Shown piece after piece: positions 5,697 through 14,887 of a DNA stretch of 20,789 bases (positions within the stretch are counted from its first letter, which is position 1; each line of letters begins with the position of its first letter). The position numbers and the translations under genes were made by a program. The DNA lies in the IMG/VR virus record IMGVR_UViG_3300021197_000109, positions 1-20,789 of that record; one strand, 5' to 3'. This DNA comes from a virus. Under the pieces are notes generated by a model, which was not told the origin of the DNA, did no database searches, and was given only the letters and a program-made list of their open reading frames with translations.

Positions 5697-6584
5697 ATGG
5701 CTGAAGAAAAACAAGAAGTTGAAGAGCAAGAAATTATTGTAGAAGAAGAAAAAGAAGATACTAAAGCAGAAGAAAAGGTTGAAAAAAAGACCGAGGTAGC
5801 TGCTGCTGAAGGTGATGACGAACTCGAAGATTACGGCGAGAAGGTACAGAAACGTATCAAAAAACTTACCGAGCGTTATAGAAATGAACAACGTGACCGT
5901 GAAGAAGCGGTGCGAATGGCGCAAAAGTTATTGGATGAAAACAATAAACTTAAAGGTCGAGTGCAACAATTAGATAACGGATACTTAAACGAGTATGGAA
6001 ACCGTTTATCTACACAAGAACAGTCTGCAAAAACTGCATATAAACAGGCATACGAAGCAGGTGATTCAGACGCAATGCTTGCTGCACAAGAGCAAATTGC
6101 TCAAGTTGCAATAGATAAACAACGGTATGGAGCAGCAAAAAATCGTGTCGATCAACAACAAAAAGTGCAGGTCGATCAACAAGCGCAGCCACAACAACAA
6201 ACGCAGCCACAACAGGCTCAAACCCCTGCAAAGGTTGATCCAAAGGCTAAAGACTGGGCTGAAAAGAACGAGTGGTTTGGCAACGATAAGATCATGACCA
6301 CCGCTGCTTTTACGCTACATCAACAACTTGTCGAAGAAGAAGGGTTTGACCCGAACAGCGATGAGTATTATACTGAAATAGATGGTCGTATTCGTTCGGA
6401 GTTTCCGCACAAGTTTAATACGGCTAAGAAATCGGGTGGAAATCAGGTCGCATCTGCTGGTAATTCCGCATCCCGCACTAACAAACAGGGGCGCAGGTCG
6501 GTCAAGTTATCGCACTCACAAGTAGCGATTGCGAAAAAACTGGGCGTACCTCTCGAAGAATACGCCAAGTATGTAAAGGAGTGA
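5697..6584 (+). CDS. Capsid scaffolding protein
   Basis: This 295-residue protein would direct capsid protein assembly around the portal and then leave the prohead. The first 45 residues are extremely rich in Glu and Lys. A long helical, coiled-coil-like segment follows (about 46-100, including DEELEDYG-type acid runs and KRIKKLTERYRNEQRDREEA). A Gln-rich low-complexity linker lies at about 150-180. The basic C-terminus (about 245-295, with SVKLSHSQVAIAKKLGVPL) is a likely capsid-binding helix region. Composition, length, and position between co-chaperonin and capsid genes are the evidence; scaffolds rarely show sequence motifs. RBS: GGGGCAGGATT just before the ATG. No protease motif is visible in it. 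Confidence 0.8.
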   Translation: MAEEKQEVEEQEIIVEEEKEDTKAEEKVEKKTEVAAAEGDDELEDYGEKVQKRIKKLTERYRNEQRDREEAVRMAQKLLDENNKLKGRVQQLDNGYLNEYGNRLSTQEQSAKTAYKQAYEAGDSDAMLAAQEQIAQVAIDKQRYGAAKNRVDQQQKVQVDQQAQPQQQTQPQQAQTPAKVDPKAKDWAEKNEWFGNDKIMTTAAFTLHQQLVEEEGFDPNSDEYYTEIDGRIRSEFPHKFNTAKKSGGNQVASAGNSASRTNKQGRRSVKLSHSQVAIAKKLGVPLEEYAKYVKE

Positions 6585-7715: not shown

Positions 7716-8627
7716 ATGGCTATATCTCGCGCTCAACTAGCGAAAGAGTTGGAACCTGGTCTCAACGCCTTGTTTGGTATGGAGTACGATAGGTACGAAA
7801 ACCAACATGCAGAGATTTACACAACAGAATCCTCGGATCGTGCATTCGAAGAAGAGGTTATGTTGAGTGGTTTCGGCGCAGCACCAACCAAATCGGAAGG
7901 TTCTGCAATCAACTACGACGACGCTAACGAAGCATATACTGCTCGTTACAACCACGAAACAATAGCGTTGGCATTCTCAATCACTGAGGAAGCTATCGAA
8001 GACAATCTTTATGATCGTCTTGGTTCACGTTATACTCGTGCGTTGGCTCGTTCAATGGCACACACAAAGCAAGTTAAGGCCGCTGCGGTTCTTAACAACG
8101 CATTTACTGCTGGCGCATCTGCTGGTGGTGACGGTGTTGCGCTTTGTGCAACGGATCACCCGCTTACTTCAGGTGGTACATTTGCCAACGAACCAGCAAC
8201 TGCTGCGGATTTGAATGAGACATCTCTTGAAGATGCTCTTATCAGTATCGCAGGATTTGTTGACGAGCGTGGTCTCAAAGTCGCGTTGCGCGGCACCAAG
8301 TTGCTCATCCCACGTCAACTGCAATTCGTTGCAGAGCGTTTGATGGTATCAAACTTGCGTGTTGGCACAGCCGACAATGACACCAATGCATTACGTTCAA
8401 TGGGTATGTTGCCAAACGGTTATGCCGTTAACGACTTCCTAACGGACCCAGATGCGTTCTTCGTCATGACAGACGCGCCTCGTGGATTTATCAACTTCGA
8501 ACGTACGCCAATGACTACTGGCATGGAAGCTGATTTCGACACAGGCAACATGCGCTTTAAGGCTCGTGAGCGTTACAGCTTCGGCTTTAGTGACCCACGC
8601 GCAGTATTTGGTTCGCCAGGTGCATAA
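7716..8627 (+). CDS. Major capsid protein (HK97-like fold expected)
   Basis: This is 303 residues. It has the look of an HK97-fold coat protein: an N-terminal helix (about 1-20), then an extended-loop region with EVMLSGFGAAPTKSEGSAIN (about 47-66), then a spine-like helix carrying SITEEAIEDNLYDRLGSRYT and RALARSMAHTKQVKAAAVLN (about 89-127). A central domain includes ATDHPLTSGG (about 145-154), RGTKLLIPRQLQFVAERLM and a C-terminal beta-rich part, FKARERYSFGFSDPRAVFGS. There is no N-terminal delta domain long enough to act as a fused scaffold, which agrees with a separate scaffold gene. A strong terminator follows after about 50 bases, and RBS AAGGAG precedes the ATG. Confidence 0.85.
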   Translation: MAISRAQLAKELEPGLNALFGMEYDRYENQHAEIYTTESSDRAFEEEVMLSGFGAAPTKSEGSAINYDDANEAYTARYNHETIALAFSITEEAIEDNLYDRLGSRYTRALARSMAHTKQVKAAAVLNNAFTAGASAGGDGVALCATDHPLTSGGTFANEPATAADLNETSLEDALISIAGFVDERGLKVALRGTKLLIPRQLQFVAERLMVSNLRVGTADNDTNALRSMGMLPNGYAVNDFLTDPDAFFVMTDAPRGFINFERTPMTTGMEADFDTGNMRFKARERYSFGFSDPRAVFGSPGA

Positions 8628-9587: not shown

Positions 9588-9833
9588 ATGGCAAAGATCG
9601 ACAAGTCAAGGATGAAGTGCAACAAGCCAAAACGTCAAGTTTCTGGCGGCAAGAAGTTTGTTGTCAAAGCATGTGACAAAGGTAAAGAAAAGATTGTTCG
9701 TTTCGGAGATGCTAATATGAAGATCCGAAAGTCTAATCCAAAAGCCAGGAAATCATTTCGTGCAAGGCATGGATGTGACAAAGGCACTCTTGATAAATTA
9801 AAGGCCAAATATTGGTCCTGTAAGCAGTGGTAG
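9588..9833 (+). CDS. Small basic Cys protein (conserved in marine phages)
   Basis: This 81-residue protein is very basic (Lys and Arg throughout) with four Cys (11, 29, 63, 78) and no hydrophobic segment. The start MAKIDKSRMKCNKPKR, the middle KKFVVKACDKGKEKIVRFGD and the end ARKSFRARHGC / YWSCKQW form a pattern I recall as recurring in cyanophages and other marine phages, without known function. The Cys spacing could bind zinc but is not a standard knuckle. The charge suggests contact with DNA or RNA, perhaps inside the capsid. It is the first of a run of tiny basic genes. Confidence 0.65.
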   Translation: MAKIDKSRMKCNKPKRQVSGGKKFVVKACDKGKEKIVRFGDANMKIRKSNPKARKSFRARHGCDKGTLDKLKAKYWSCKQW

Positions 9834-9838
9834 AGAGA

Positions 9839-10072
9839 ATGGATAAAAACGTACAGCTTTTGTTTTGGGGCGCGGGTTTAACATTAGGATCAGCGGGACT
9901 GGTGTGGATGATATCTACATTGATTACTGTGGATAAACGGACAGAAGTTATGGACGTAAAAATAGATCATTTAGTTCAAGCGGTAGAGACTTTGACAGAG
10001 AGGCAAGCAAGTTATGATCAGTCGTGGACAGATGCCCTTCCAAATCTCCAAGCCTCCAAAGGAGATAACTAA
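9839..10072 (+). CDS. Small single-TM protein with coiled-coil tail
   Basis: This is a 77-residue protein. Residues 6-30 are hydrophobic (LLFWGAGLTLGSAGLVWMIS) and form one TM segment. The rest is a short helical heptad region (EVMDVKIDHLVQAVETLTER) and a polar tail. I chose the ATG at 9839, preceded by GAGAG. A GTG at 9827 lies inside the previous gene and would only add MVER. The layout recalls the first gene of the lysis block (TM, then coiled coil) and small phage membrane proteins of the Rz/holin-accessory type, but nothing specific supports a function. Its TAA overlaps the next ATG by one base. Confidence 0.65.
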   Translation: MDKNVQLLFWGAGLTLGSAGLVWMISTLITVDKRTEVMDVKIDHLVQAVETLTERQASYDQSWTDALPNLQASKGDN

Positions 10073-10362
10073 TGGCAAAAAAAGCAAAAACAAAAAAAGA
10101 CGCATGCTACCACAAGGTAAAAAGCCGATACAAGGTTTGGCCCAGCGCATACGCTTCAGGGGCACTTTCTAAATGTCGCAAGGTTGGAGCTAAAAACTGG
10201 GGTAACTCGAAGAAACAAAAGAAAGCAGACGGTGGCGTAGTCTCAGCTATTGATAATCCAAAACGTCCACCAAGAAGAAATCTTAACGGTGGTGGTTATA
10301 TTGCTGCTGGATGTGGACCTGCTATGCAAGAAAGCAAACGAAAAGTTACAAGGAATTTCTGA
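10072..10362 (+). CDS. Small basic protein with KVWPSAYASGAL-KCRK motif
   Basis: This is 96 residues, strongly basic. A conserved-looking core, DACYHKVKSRYKVWPSAYAS (10-29) then GALSKCRKVGAKNWG, holds two of three Cys (12 and 35, the third at 81). The motif occurs, as far as I recall, in many marine phages and some large DNA viruses, with unknown function. The C-terminal half is Gly-rich, with ADGGVV (52-57) and NGGGYIAAG, and the protein ends KVTRNF. It belongs with the following genes, which also show GG-V motifs and Arg-x-Phe ends. RBS AAAGGAG; the start overlaps the previous stop (TAATG). Confidence 0.7.
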   Translation: MAKKAKTKKDACYHKVKSRYKVWPSAYASGALSKCRKVGAKNWGNSKKQKKADGGVVSAIDNPKRPPRRNLNGGGYIAAGCGPAMQESKRKVTRNF

Positions 10363-10595
10363 TGGCAAAGAAAAATTCTTTACGCGACTGGTTCGCTAAG
10401 AACGATGGAAAGGGTTGGGTAGACTGTAAAACGGGTAAACCTTGCGGTCGTCAAAAAGGGGAGAATCGTAAAGGATATCCTGCTTGTAGACCAACAATGG
10501 CTCAGTGCACATCTGCGGCAAAGAAAAAGAAATCATCAAAACGCATTAGTTGGAAAAATAAAAAGGCTAATGGTGGATTAGTAAGAGTTTTTTAA
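10362..10595 (+). CDS. Small basic four-Cys protein (WVDCKTGKPCGR type)
   Basis: This 77-residue protein begins MAKKNSLRDWFAKNDGKGWV. Four Cys lie at 22, 28, 42 and 49 in VDCKTGKPCGRQKGE and YPACRPTMAQC, a spacing that could hold a zinc ion. The tail is Lys/Ser-rich and ends ANGGLVRVF. I recall this D-WF / GWVDC / PCGR / YPACRPT pattern from marine phages and also from algal and giant viruses, where it is uncharacterised. The ATG at 10362 has AAGGA in front and overlaps the previous TGA (TGATG), so an upstream non-ATG start inside the neighbour is not needed. Confidence 0.7.
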   Translation: MAKKNSLRDWFAKNDGKGWVDCKTGKPCGRQKGENRKGYPACRPTMAQCTSAAKKKKSSKRISWKNKKANGGLVRVF

Positions 10596-10608
10596 AAGGA
10601 GAACTAAC

Positions 10609-10848
10609 ATGGCAATGAAGAAAAAAGGTTACCGAAACGGTGGTAAAGTCAAACCCAAGGGAATGAAGAACGGCGGTAAAGTCAAACCCAAGGGAATGAA
10701 GAACGGCGGTAAGGTTATGCCCAAGGGAATGAAGAACGGTGGTAAAGTCAAACCCAAGGGAATGGCAAACGGTGGTAAGGTGCAGTCTAAAGGGGCAGCA
10801 GCAGGTGGATTAATGGCTCAAGGAATGAAGCCAGTGAGGATCTTCTAA
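10609..10848 (+). CDS. Lys/Gly tandem-repeat protein (11-residue units)
   Basis: This 79-residue protein is built of five 11-residue units of the form KVKPKGMKNGG (residues about 13-67), followed by LMAQGMKPVRIF. There are almost no acidic residues, so it is strongly positive and likely unstructured. A role in binding DNA or the capsid interior is plausible but unproven. The first two units are identical at the DNA level, so the copy number may vary by slippage or recombination. The GG-KV motif and the R-x-F end recur in neighbouring small proteins. RBS AAAAGGAG precedes the ATG after a 13-base gap. Confidence 0.75.
   Translation: MAMKKKGYRNGGKVKPKGMKNGGKVKPKGMKNGGKVMPKGMKNGGKVKPKGMANGGKVQSKGAAAGGLMAQGMKPVRIF
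10642..10806 (+). repeat. Five tandem 33-bp repeats inside the Lys/Gly-repeat gene
   Basis: Units start at 10642, 10675, 10708, 10741 and 10774. The first two are identical over 33 bases, the third and fourth differ at a few positions, and the fifth is degenerate. The period is a multiple of three, so gain or loss of units keeps the frame. Confidence 0.95.
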
Positions 10849-10853
10849 CCATA

Positions 10854-11555
10854 ATGTCATACTTACAAAGTAATATACCTTATTTTAAGGCTTGGGTTCG
10901 TCGTGAGTACACCCATAATCATGAGAAATATCACGGCGAGTTTCTCCATGCTATGGTGGTTGCAGTTACAACCATACCAAATAGAAGTCTTAGTTTTCAA
11001 GTTATCTTCACAGGATGTGAGGCAGAGGGCGAAGAGGAAGATACGATTCACGGCGGAGCTATGTGGGCAAGAATGCCTATAACTGCCTTGGTCGCAGATA
11101 TACCGTTAGAAGAATGGCCTCAACCGATGGCAACGCATGACGCTCAACCTTGGGACTGTTCCTCCCATAATCACGCGGTATACACACTAGATCGAGCCAC
11201 ACCATGCCCGTGGTTAGCTAAGATAAACGGTGAAATGTTTCCTGCAAAATATTTATTTACGGTAGACTATACGGACAGTGAGATTGCTGATGATCCCGCT
11301 CAACATAAACAAAGTCATGTAATGCAGCTTTTAGATGCTGGAGAATGGACGGGTAATATTGTTGCGCTACCAAACAACCGAGTTCGTGTGACACACCCTG
11401 CTTGGTTTGCGATGGGCGAGGGCGCACCAGACTTTAGACCCTCTCAACATATACACTATTCAAAAAGTGATTTAGACTATACACTAGATGTGAATAGAGT
11501 TTTCGATAACCTTTACAATCAGGAGGATGAAGATGAACAAGAAACAAATACCTGA
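10854..11555 (+). CDS. Conserved phage protein of unknown function, Trp/His-rich
   Basis: This 233-residue soluble protein has no recognisable catalytic motif. It contains His-rich patches (HNHEKYHGEFLHAM about 22-35, SHNHAVYTLD about 103-112), many Trp and an acidic tail ending EDEDEQETNT. The central part, HGGAMWARMPITALVADIPL and PCPWLAKINGEMFPAKYLF, looks like a folded beta-rich domain. I recall a homologue in other marine podovirus-like genomes between the small basic genes and the connector, suggesting a head or DNA-injection role, but this is only context. The ribosome site is weak (GAGGAT about 14 bases upstream). Its end overlaps the next small gene by 23 bases. Confidence 0.65.
   Translation: MSYLQSNIPYFKAWVRREYTHNHEKYHGEFLHAMVVAVTTIPNRSLSFQVIFTGCEAEGEEEDTIHGGAMWARMPITALVADIPLEEWPQPMATHDAQPWDCSSHNHAVYTLDRATPCPWLAKINGEMFPAKYLFTVDYTDSEIADDPAQHKQSHVMQLLDAGEWTGNIVALPNNRVRVTHPAWFAMGEGAPDFRPSQHIHYSKSDLDYTLDVNRVFDNLYNQEDEDEQETNT
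11521..11526 (+). promoter_or_regulatory. Ribosome binding site deciding the start of the 48-residue gene
   Basis: A perfect AGGAGG lies inside the 3' end of the preceding gene. It touches the ATG at 11527 directly but is six bases from the in-frame ATG at 11533, so it supports 11533 as the start and shows the tiny gene is translated. Confidence 0.7.
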
Positions 11556-11679
11556 AGGAAAAAAAGGGGCTGGGATGAGAGCCTTAAAAAAAGCAGCACC
11601 GCAAGTCGCCTCTCGTATGGGGTATAAAAACGGTGGGTGTGTAATGGTTAAAACAAACCAAAAACCAAAATTGAGTTGA
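11533..11679 (+). CDS. 48-residue basic peptide with KNGG-V motif
   Basis: This small ORF encodes MNKKQIPEGKKGAGMRALKK, then AAPQVASRMGYKNGGCVMVK and a short polar tail. It is highly basic, with a central helix and the YKNGGCV motif at 31-37 that resembles the NGGKV units of the repeat protein 700 bases upstream. A perfect AGGAGG six bases before the ATG strongly supports it. I recall short proteins of the form M-K-IP-G-KG ... A-P-V--RMGY-GG in other marine phages, always without a function. It fills the 128-base gap between the genes at 10854 and 11684 and overlaps the former by 23 bases. Confidence 0.75.
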   Translation: MNKKQIPEGKKGAGMRALKKAAPQVASRMGYKNGGCVMVKTNQKPKLS

Positions 11680-11683
11680 TGCT

Positions 11684-12349
11684 ATGACTACTTCAGGTTC
11701 ACGAGATTTTAATATGGATGTTGGCGAGATTGTCGAGGAGGCGTACGAACGCTGTGGTCTCGAGGTTCGCACAGGATATGATGCCCGAACGGCAAGAAGA
11801 TCGTTGAACATAATGTTTGCCGATTGGGCGAACCGTGGTTTAAATCTTTGGACGGTAAAACAAGCAACGATTACGCTTACGTTAGGTCAGGCGCAGGAAA
11901 CACTTGGCACAGATGTGGTAGATATCCTGGAAGTTATACTTCGTAGAGATGGTACGGACTATGAGATAGATAGAATTAGCCGTGGTGAATATGCAACACT
12001 GCCTAACAAAACCACTCAAGGACGACCCTCTCAATTTTATTTTGACAGACAAATAGCTCCTGTAATCAACTTGTGGGCTGTTCCTGAAAACTCAACAGAT
12101 CAGATAGTTTACTATTATGTGCAACGAATCGAAGACGCTGATACTCTTGTTAATACTACTGATATGCCTTTTCGTTTCTATCCTTGCATGGTGGCTGGAT
12201 TAGCATATTACATCGGTATGAAACGTGCGCCAGAACGATTGCAGTATTTAAAAGCTGTGTACGAAGAAGAGTTTCAACGAGCAGCGGACGAAGACGAAGG
12301 ACGTACACCACTTAAACTTCAACCTAGCATTCAATACTTGAGGGTTTAA
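11684..12349 (+). CDS. Head-to-tail adaptor, P22 gp4-like
   Basis: This 221-residue protein resembles the tail accessory / portal-ring adaptor that attaches below the portal in podoviruses. The N-terminal helical part has VGEIVEEAYERCGLEVRTGY and LNIMFADWANRGLNLWTVKQ (about 10-66), the best-known signature. The beta-rich middle includes ILEVILRRDGTDYEIDRISR. A C-terminal helix (about 165-205) carries RFYPCMVAGLAYYIGMKRAP and a tail LQPSIQYLRV that could dock into the portal. The next genes are connector and nozzle candidates. The ribosome site is weak; the gene starts 4 bases after the preceding stop and its TAA shares a base with the next ATG. Confidence 0.8.
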   Translation: MTTSGSRDFNMDVGEIVEEAYERCGLEVRTGYDARTARRSLNIMFADWANRGLNLWTVKQATITLTLGQAQETLGTDVVDILEVILRRDGTDYEIDRISRGEYATLPNKTTQGRPSQFYFDRQIAPVINLWAVPENSTDQIVYYYVQRIEDADTLVNTTDMPFRFYPCMVAGLAYYIGMKRAPERLQYLKAVYEEEFQRAADEDEGRTPLKLQPSIQYLRV

Positions 12350-13586: not shown

Positions 13587-14021
13587 ATGGCCTTTTCAGG
13601 TAACTTCATGTGCACGAGCTTTAAGAAGGAGCTTCTTGAAGCCAAGCACAACTTTTTAAACAGCGGAGGTAGCACCTTTAATCTTGCACTCTATACAAAC
13701 AGTGCTTCTTTTACCGCTGCAACTACAGCATACACCACTTCAAACGAAGTGTCTGGTACAGGATATACAGCAAAAGGTGCGGCTCTTACTCGTGTAGACC
13801 CATCAACAAGTGGAACTACAGCACTCACTGATTTCTCTGATCTTACTTTTAGTACAGCAACAGTCACGGCTCGTGGTGCGTTGATCTTTAATGACAGTGC
13901 ATCAGGGGATCCCACTGTTGTGGTTCTTGATTTTGGTGGTGATAAAACTTCTACCGCAGGTGATTTTACAGTTGTATTTCCAACAGCGGACGCAAGTAAC
14001 GCGATTATCAGGATAGCCTAA
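13587..14021 (+). CDS. Beta-rich virion protein (fibre/decoration type)
   Basis: This is 144 residues. The start MAFSGNFMCTSFKKELLEAK, then HNFLNSGGSTFNLALYTNSA, NEVSGTGYTAKGAALTRVDP and TVTARGALIFNDSASGDPTV, and the end FPTADASNAIIRIA, make up a widely distributed phage structural protein, known to me from marine and roseobacter-type podoviruses and others. It is all-beta with no Cys beyond residue 9 and no TM segment. It probably decorates the tail or head surface; the precise location is unknown. The strong AAGGAG site lies at the end of the preceding gene, and its TAA shares a base with the next ATG. Confidence 0.7.
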   Translation: MAFSGNFMCTSFKKELLEAKHNFLNSGGSTFNLALYTNSASFTAATTAYTTSNEVSGTGYTAKGAALTRVDPSTSGTTALTDFSDLTFSTATVTARGALIFNDSASGDPTVVVLDFGGDKTSTAGDFTVVFPTADASNAIIRIA

Positions 14022-14887
14022 TGGCAGACATCATCGTTCCAATTGGCGGTTGGTCCCGCTTTGGTTGGGGCGAGATGCCTTGGGGTCAGACTAATCTACC
14101 CAAGGCTACAGCTTCAGTTGGCTCTGTAACTGTAGTTGCAGAAGCAAACACGCCCGTCACAGGACTAGCCGCTACAGCTTCAGTGGGTTCTGTTTCTGTG
14201 GTTGCAGAAGCAAACACTTCTGTCACGGGAATTGCAGCTACTGGGTCAGTTGGCTCTGTAACTGTTACAGGATTAGCTAATGTCACAACCACTGGTGTAG
14301 CGGGAACTGGGTCAGTTGGCGCAGCTACGGCTACTGCGGGAGCAAACGCCTCCGTCACAGGGTTAGCTGCCACAGGCTCCGTTGGTACTACTACAGTCGT
14401 TGCAAAGGCTAATGTGTCTCCGACTGGTGTAGCTGCGACAGGAGCAGTTGGCTCTGCAACAATTAGCGGAAAAGCAAATGTACCTGTTACTGGTGTAGCG
14501 GGAACAGGTGCCGTTGGAACTGTTACAGCAAACGCCGCAGCCGATGTTTCGGTGACTGGCCTTGCAGCAACTGGAGGCGTAGGCACCACAACAGTTACTG
14601 GGAAAGCAAATGTACCTGCTACTGGTCTTGCAGGAACGGGTGCCGTTGGCAGCGTTTCAGTTCAGCTTGGCATGACAGTTAATGTGACAGGGTTATCTGC
14701 TACTGGCGAAGTTAGTACAGCCACTGTTACTGTTACCGCAGGAGCCGATGTTTCTGTAACAGGAATAGCCGCCACAGGACAGGTCGGACAAGTTCTTGTA
14801 TGGGGAACCATTGTTCCAAATCAAAATCCGAGTTATACTACAATCAACCCGAGCCAAACACCAAGTTGGACGGATATAGCAGCATAG
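14021..14887 (+). CDS. 22-residue-repeat protein, putative fibre or surface protein
   Basis: This is 288 residues. An aromatic head (IGGWSRFGWGEMPWGQTNLP, residues 8-27) is followed by ten near-regular units from residue 29 to 250. Nine units are 22 residues and the last is 24, of the form A-T-A/G-x-V-G-S-V-T-V ... A-N-V-x-V-T-G-L/V-A. A part unit and a tail with three short imperfect repeats (NQNPSYTTI, NPSQTPSWTDI) end the protein. Alternating Val/Thr/Ala with Gly turns predicts stacked beta hairpins, suited to a thin fibre or a host-binding filament. No Cys, Lys-poor. The gene lies directly before the S74 tail fibre. Copy number at the 66-bp DNA level may vary. Confidence 0.7.
   Translation: MADIIVPIGGWSRFGWGEMPWGQTNLPKATASVGSVTVVAEANTPVTGLAATASVGSVSVVAEANTSVTGIAATGSVGSVTVTGLANVTTTGVAGTGSVGAATATAGANASVTGLAATGSVGTTTVVAKANVSPTGVAATGAVGSATISGKANVPVTGVAGTGAVGTVTANAAADVSVTGLAATGGVGTTTVTGKANVPATGLAGTGAVGSVSVQLGMTVNVTGLSATGEVSTATVTVTAGADVSVTGIAATGQVGQVLVWGTIVPNQNPSYTTINPSQTPSWTDIAA
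14105..14770 (+). repeat. Degenerate tandem 66-bp repeats (about ten copies)
   Basis: The codons for the 22-residue units form a 66-bp period. DNA copies are diverged, yet some stretches two units apart stay nearly identical, for example around 14466-14515 and 14598-14647 (GCAAATGTACCTG-TACTGGT then GG-GCCGTTGG). This suggests unit shuffling by recombination. Confidence 0.85.

Follow-up and report, generated by a model that had tools for sequence, protein, structure and literature searches.

The DNA analysed here, called the window throughout, is a 20,789-base virus record (IMG/VR IMGVR_UViG_3300021197_000109), a contig of the HTVC023P-like podovirus type. Its plus strand carries portal, GroES, scaffold-like, capsid, adaptor and tail genes, and its capsid protein, compared over 99% of its length, is 71.1% identical to the HTVC023P major capsid protein. 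Several small genes follow one another between the capsid gene and the adaptor gene. Four of these had been singled out in an initial annotation as very basic proteins sharing a GG-x-V motif and, in three cases, an R-x-F end, which suggested a common sorting or docking tag, for instance for the capsid interior. We find that these motifs belong to a family of C-terminal tags, here T1, T2 and T3, borne by otherwise unrelated proteins of one phage lineage, and we consider whether a component of the phage particle could read them.

All four genes are present as claimed. The product of gene 10072 contains ADGGVV and terminates in KVTRNF, that of gene 10362 terminates in ANGGLVRVF, and that of gene 10609 has five NGGKV units and terminates in KPVRIF. 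The fourth does contain YKNGGCV, but it starts at 11527 and not at 11533, and it terminates in PKLS rather than R-x-F. The three R-x-F ends are the only such ends among the 29 genes examined. The proteins are indeed very basic, with net charges of +21, +18, +22 and +12 (+0.22 to +0.28 per residue), a basicity shared among the other 25 genes only by gene 9588 (+0.26 per residue). GG-x-V occurs eight times in the four proteins against a mean of 0.46 in shuffled sequences, and 0 of 2000 shuffles reach eight; with the repeat protein left out, four GG-x-[VI] remain against 0.16, a number reached in 0 of 5000. Chance alone would not make the four genes so alike. The NGGKV units of gene 10609 are encoded by a 33-bp tandem repeat (4.3 copies, 10636–10778). 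Repeat unit and copy number of such proteins differ among relatives.

The ends of open reading frames (ORFs) were counted in 154 related viral loci, picked for containing relatives of two of these genes, together with the window, using distinct, mechanically called ORFs. Duplicate loci were removed for these counts and for the half, selectivity and capsid-tree counts given below; elsewhere loci can overlap. The expected enrichment of R-x-F is seen in ORFs of 60–99 amino acids (aa; 64/685), compared with 1/268 at 35–59 aa, 9/355 at 100–149 aa, 0/574 at 150–249 aa and 0/224 at 250 aa or more. Within the final 40 residues, GG-x-V is likewise frequent at 60–99 aa (117/685), but it also appears in 39/574 ORFs of 150–249 aa, there as a feature of other, conserved proteins. 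The combined motif is too loose: GG-x-V is a lead-in, and R-x-F is one form of ending. In related loci, repeat proteins of the 10609 kind have VRIF, VRTF, GFKG[IVH]F or other sequences at their ends, so that R-x-F in its short form and FKGxF seem to alternate at one place; 11527-like proteins end in NGGCVMAGRGxRxTKM or NGGCVMVKTNQ. Within the window, gene 10072 alone has the full tag, genes 10362 and 10609 have short versions, and gene 11527 has GG-x-V only.

Relatives of gene 10072 end in a longer conserved tail, for example GGxIASGCGxVEESRRKxTRTF, and similar tails occur on a neighbouring protein (loci L037, L038, L041 and L044) and on an EF-hand-like protein (L062). Three tail cores can be told apart: GCGxVMxxRRKxT (T1), GDGxAxRGKTKG (T2) and GAAxRGxxFKG (T3). 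Because the loci of a search with a hidden Markov model (HMM) of the tail had been partly chosen for the tail, we scanned a viral-contig collection with DNA patterns of the core that lack the stop codon and are blind to the carrier, each scan yielding at least 120 stretches. Among the matches listed, all 119 for T1 (119 loci) lie 16–22 aa from the stop, 87 of them at 16 and 22 at 20, and the longest stop-to-stop frame is 170 codons. For T2 (120 loci), the distance is exactly 15 residues in 129 of 134 and 23, 23, 24, 26 and 62 in the remaining five; for T3 (120 loci), 124 of 125 lie at 11–13 residues, 122 of them at 13. Across the three patterns, 372 of the 378 matches listed fall within 22 residues of the C-terminal end. 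Since this distance is nearly fixed, the tails look like docking tags, and that part of the initial annotation is supported.

HMM searches place the tails at the same end. At 10 bits or more, the T1-tail HMM matches 269 of 24768 ORFs in 286 records, which were partly selected for the tail, with every match ending no more than 8 residues from the stop and none elsewhere; reversed proteins give 0 C-terminal matches and 3 elsewhere. At 8 bits or more, the T2 HMM finds 214 C-terminal carriers, one to four on each of 115 of the 120 T2 contigs, and a single C-terminal match on 118 control contigs from GTDB. The reversed-pattern control was run for T2: read backwards, the pattern retrieves 5 stretches from the same viral collection, compared with at least 120 forward, and 0/5 have a marker match. 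In GTDB genomes, 19 of the 120 T2 matches listed lie within 22 residues of the stop, and only L578 and L618 adjoin structural genes of the window's lineage; both end T2-like. These two are filed in GTDB as 'uncultured bacteria' and are probably mis-binned phage or infected cells.

The tags are constrained as protein. Entropy at the three codon positions of T2 is 0.84, 0.82 and 1.65 bits; the third position varies most, so it is the protein level that is conserved, and a DNA-level element is ruled out for T2. Positions left free by the patterns are also restricted, with R at −16 in 111 of 117 T2 tails, M, F, I, Y or L at −2 in 114 of 117, and F or Y as the last residue in 71 of 82 T3 tails. A PHROG scan of ten isolated tails gave 0 matches.

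As had been proposed, the tails are modules on otherwise unrelated proteins and do not reflect descent of whole genes: N-terminal clusters are diverse, and one domain occurs with different tags. Among the matches listed, 125 T2 carriers of at least 60 aa form 63 N-terminal clusters (all T2 carriers together span 15–453 aa), and 119 T3 carriers of at least 50 aa form 27. Eleven contigs have two or three T2 carriers of at least 60 aa, and in 10 of the 11 these belong to different clusters. When 62 T2 carriers were compared with PHROGs, six families were matched by one or two members each, including 'virion structural protein' (E 1.3e-5), 'endolysin' (E 3.4e-4) and 'tape measure' (E 0.006); Pfam returned one marginal match for the same 62. 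By eye, T2 carriers in L471, L500, L517, L528 and L541 contain small-residue hydrophobic stretches resembling membrane-active segments. Such stretches in several T2 carriers would suit ejected proteins.

Some of the carriers are related to the Pfam family DUF5872 (PF19197). Judged through their relatives, the adjacent genes 10072 and 10362 correspond to its N- and C-terminal halves, with the order kept: C72C1 relatives match PF19197 positions 1–39 (28.8 bits) and 53–106 (24.4 bits, below the cut-off), and a P-SCSP2 protein matches the second half, positions 55–112, at 53.3 bits. The P-SCSP2 first-half protein and the window's own proteins have no PF19197 match (Pfam cut-off 27.5 bits). The two window proteins match separate parts of a single PHROG profile, phrog_727. 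In these phages the halves are separate proteins, either of which can bear a tag. In the cyanophage proteins P0001 and P0002, both DUF5872-like motifs (by eye) and DUF6321 lie in one long chain. T4-GC 119, built in the same way, is labelled 'structural protein' in the GenBank entry of S-P4 and 'hypothetical protein' in that of S-SM1, a phage for which cyanophage proteomics reported 41 virion proteins (PMC3037559). The fused P0001 (L155 2029–3618) also matches the restriction enzyme Sau3AI over 73 residues (E 2.9e-5), which could be an effect of composition. DUF5872 is tabulated for the algal virus CpV-BQ1 as well (PMC12085832), and the DUF5872, DUF5754 and DUF6321 families co-occur in phages of very different kinds. 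Gene 9588 in the same cluster resembles Tlr6F/DUF5754 (PF19058), a family of unknown function whose conservation has been described for polinton-like viruses, virophages, Megavirales and certain phages (PMC4642659). The 10072 protein has no match among solved structures by sequence, and the available parts of an HTVC027P transcriptome study (PMC12753301) held no data on these genes.

Which proteins bear a tag was counted in a pooled, de-duplicated set with domains recognized by simple motifs; many of its loci were chosen by tag or domain, and the fractions are not prevalences. Of 382 N-halves, 211 bear T1, 18 bear T3 and 153 have no tag; for 330 C-halves the figures are 58, 17 and 255. EF-hand-like proteins, as we take them to be, bear T2 in 2 and T3 in 8 of 58 cases, and both proteins that we regard as DUF5824-like bear T1. 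The tag can therefore differ among proteins with one domain, and certain neighbours are never tagged. We also sorted the halves by lineage, again without duplicates and leaving out frames of more than 260 codons, hence the fused T4-like chains. In loci of the window's lineage, T1 is found on 134/194 N-halves where structural markers are present and on 60/76 where the adaptor is the only marker, and on 28/160 and 24/72 C-halves, respectively. On contigs without a lineage assignment it is found on 6/61 N-halves and 7/57 C-halves. Eight loci have morphogenesis genes of other kinds, as told by their capsid, portal, terminase, connector or tail markers, and there 0/8 of each half bear it.

Both halves are present in 219 lineage loci (153 recognized by structural markers, 66 by the adaptor only). 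Of these loci, 139 have T1 on the N-half only, 34 on the C-half only, 14 on both and 32 on neither, which puts it on exactly one half in 173 of the 219. For docking as a complex, a pair would need a single tag; shared ancestry makes a formal test unsafe. Many N-halves without T1 terminate in K/R-rich runs, such as KKKKKKAKKRKR. In L171, L190, L202 and others, T1 is on the C-half and the N-half often has a plain K/G/R-rich tail.

The tags are associated with one phage lineage. Among the tag-pattern loci listed, the capsid model of the window's type matches 53 (T1), 57 (T2) and 30 (T3), and none of the other capsid models tried (HTVC106P and HTVC203P for T1, with P-SCSP2 in addition for T2 and T3) matches any. 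At least one of 29 marker proteins, DUF6321 included, is found on 118/119 T1 loci listed, and a structural marker of the window's lineage on 117/120 T2 and 115/119 T3 loci listed; adaptor-type proteins cross-match, the HTVC106P protein 106_27365 matching 22/119 T1 loci. Pooling gave 687 tag ORFs from 476 loci, 14 of them on loci without a marker, and all 673 of the 673 on marker loci share the strand of the morphogenesis genes. Of these ORFs, 216 lie between capsid and adaptor, 259 upstream of an adaptor on loci where no other marker is present, 38 between portal and GroES and 30 between terL and portal, the rest being in other or open slots. As the loci are short, nearness to morphogenesis genes is partly expected; strand agreement is less so.

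On a FastTree phylogeny of 151 capsid proteins (150 labelled; 41 of 148 inner branches well supported), separating T2 from the rest needs 5 changes compared with a mean of 35.0 for shuffled labels, and all three tag groups need 13 compared with 52.7, a clustering that near-copies among the proteins favour. With so few changes, tag type follows the particle lineage more than the identity of the carrier, which fits a phage-encoded tag reader but also plain inheritance.

Named phages carry the tags as well. In 023Pt_psg01, T1 lies on an unannotated ORF (55.3 bits; L288 13157–13351), a DUF5872-N-like gene missing from the GenBank annotation. Pag-Yong1, from Planktothrix, has T2 on UMO75986.1 (27.0 bits), and gp32 (QGZ17661.1) of HTVC023P, which infects SAR11, has a T3-like end (14.7 bits); spurious frames in this set score up to about 6 bits. 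HTVC023P-type viruses have been described as widespread SAR11 phages (PMC9599517). No tag above 4 bits is present in HTVC106P and HTVC203P (whole) or in the fetched parts of P-SCSP2 and C72C1. Searching named phages with tail peptides by tblastn, which is too insensitive for this purpose, returned one record for the T1 tail and none for the T2 consensus; the Pag-Yong1 tail returned three 65,014-base records.

The tag family itself is firmly established by its modularity, its strict C-terminal position, the protein-level constraint on T2, and its lineage, position and strand. As to what it does, we infer binding, a partner and loading: with a probability of about 0.5, these are C-terminal docking tags that a phage-encoded particle component reads, loading the carriers into the procapsid. 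Small to middle-sized proteins with diverse N-termini, encoded in the late block and, to judge from gene order, probably expressed late, end precisely in a tag, of which there are at least three types. A component that the lineage has in common, the best candidates being the major capsid protein, at its inner face, and the scaffold, would bind the tag and so draw the carriers into the procapsid, and some of them may enter the host together with the DNA. The capsid part of the original suggestion is favoured by association, through position, strand and capsid lineage. It is possible, though less likely than not, that this amounts to a lineage-wide cargo-loading code, with a pocket in capsid or scaffold reading interchangeable tags and any gene's product becoming a passenger once it acquires one.

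Two known systems are the nearest working parallels for such docking. In phage T4, a capsid targeting sequence (CTS) is shared by the divergent internal proteins IPI–III; the first 10 residues of IPIII suffice for head entry, and CTS fusions load foreign proteins (PMC9026906). The likeness is that of a short shared sequence on divergent proteins. The T4 sequence is N-terminal and is removed by the prohead protease, whereas the present tags are C-terminal, belong to another capsid lineage and occur on many more kinds of protein, whose loading is putative. In Family 1 encapsulins, short C-terminal cargo peptides mediate entry into an HK97-fold shell (PMC8346489). There, too, a C-terminal peptide is found on different proteins, although encapsulins are cellular compartments with enzyme cargo and the carriers described here are putative cargo. 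Many tag carriers are encoded near the phage major capsid gene, whose HK97 fold we assume from its PHROG major-head-protein match, and we claim no sequence relation between the two kinds of peptide. No description of such C-terminal tags was found in a full-text collection from which most subscription journals and all preprints are missing.

Several results weigh against loading into the head by docking. The association with one lineage may be plain inheritance, in which case the capsid is not singled out among the co-inherited genes, and the capsid models tried did not include T4-like capsids. Some of the lineage goes without tags: HTVC027P, CRP-902 and DSL-LC04 have none above 4 bits in the parts fetched, and 60/194 N-halves in lineage loci with structural markers lack T1. 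Of the 80 T1 carriers listed, 60 are DUF5872 halves (29 N-halves and 31 C-halves) and 20 are other proteins; loose N-terminal clustering puts 63 of the 80 in one cluster, presumably the two halves together, and leaves 17 single. DUF5754 (0/99) and DUF6321 (0/198) are never tagged in the pooled set, so proteins of this gene block do not need a tag. The T2 HMM also has 107 internal matches of at least 8 bits in T2 contigs against 30 in the GTDB control, and structure models of the two DUF5872 halves are poor (mean predicted local distance difference test scores of 62.7 and 64.6). Tags are not distinctly more alike within contigs than between them (means 0.608 and 0.590), a likeness reached by 66 of 500 permutations, and concerted evolution of tags within a genome is unsupported.

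Alternative roles fit part of the same evidence. Tag genes adjoin the adaptor, portal and GroES genes, and the adaptor is the most frequent marker of T2 loci and joint most frequent of T1 loci, as might be expected if the tags dock their carriers on another late component (portal, adaptor or GroES-assisted machinery) for assembly and not for head loading. We regard this as unlikely, since the frequency of the adaptor marker partly reflects the nearness of its gene on short loci and so many unrelated carriers would fit cargo better than a single assembly step. It is also quite unlikely that the tags are RG-rich basic tails that bind nucleic acid, condensing or coating packaged DNA with no specific protein partner. 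Every tag is rich in R, K and G, and the K/R-rich runs that end many untagged versions of the same domain could serve the same job; against this stand the near-fixed C-terminal distance, the constraint on pattern-free positions in T2 and T3, and a tag type that follows the capsid tree.

Degrons are typically placed at the exact C-terminus, as these tags are, and cleavage after GG had been proposed in the initial annotation. A protease-related role, as C-terminal degrons, protection tags or prohead-protease cleavage sites, nonetheless seems improbable to us: tag type follows the phage capsid clade, the tagged named phages come from SAR11 and a cyanobacterium source, and a cut after GG would cost the tag its best-conserved part. 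We would give very little weight to the idea that all carriers are old paralogues whose N-termini have diverged beyond recognition with the tail kept. DUF5872 halves, EF-hand-like proteins and DUF5824-like proteins have distinct motifs, the halves occur elsewhere with no tag, and members with one and the same domain bear T1 in some cases and T3 in others, which is hard to reconcile with such descent even though the tag genes lie in one gene block and some carriers share low-complexity stretches (by eye).

The proteins at issue have no known function, and a short C-terminal tag would list particle-bound proteins among them from sequence, a list that is testable in the isolated phages Pag-Yong1 and HTVC023P. 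If the tag loads cargo, it would offer a simple handle for placing chosen proteins into these capsids. A cargo code, if true, would mark dozens of uncharacterized families as packaged and perhaps injected, with possible roles in counter-defence, host takeover or DNA condensation.

Features of the window that bear on the tags, with coordinates and the basis of each assignment
Feature	Position	Strand	Basis
PSAYA-domain basic protein, 96 aa, full T1 tag at C-terminus	10072..10362	+	phrog_727 positions 262-310, E 2.2e-21; T1 HMM 35.8 bits
T1 tag, last 25 residues, NGGGYIAAGCGPAMQESKRKVTRNF	10285..10359	+	tail list; T1 HMM
WVDxKTGKPCGR-domain basic protein, 77 aa, short ending ANGGLVRVF	10362..10595	+	phrog_727 positions 111-159, E 4.6e-5
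Short GG-x-V + R-x-F ending	10566..10592	+	sequence; counterpart in relatives may end in T1 or T3 instead
Repeat protein, five NGGKV units, ends KPVRIF	10609..10848	+	sequence; tandem repeat
Small basic protein, NGGCV near end	11527..11679	+	sequence
DUF5754/Tlr6F-like basic protein, same cluster	9588..9833	+	phrog_7595 E 7.6e-15; PF19058 E 0.027, below Pfam cut-off
Major capsid protein of the tag-bearing lineage, first candidate partner	7716..8627	+	phrog_371
Putative scaffolding protein, second candidate partner	5697..6584	+	role suggested by gene order; phrog_28737, without known function
SU10-type adaptor, right-hand border of main tag-gene slot	11684..12349	+	PF24175 E 4.6e-12

By sequence, the only match of the capsid protein in the PDB is to an unrelated toxin-like protease (E 0.66), and no relative was found there. 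A second adaptor gene weakly matches the SU10 adaptor among solved structures (E 0.02). The 233-aa acidic protein encoded at 10854–11555 matches phrog_3704, labelled 'ferredoxin', a label that looks doubtful because a ferredoxin motif is not obvious in the sequence. Further downstream, a 66-bp tandem repeat (14105–14265) lies within gene 14021–14887.

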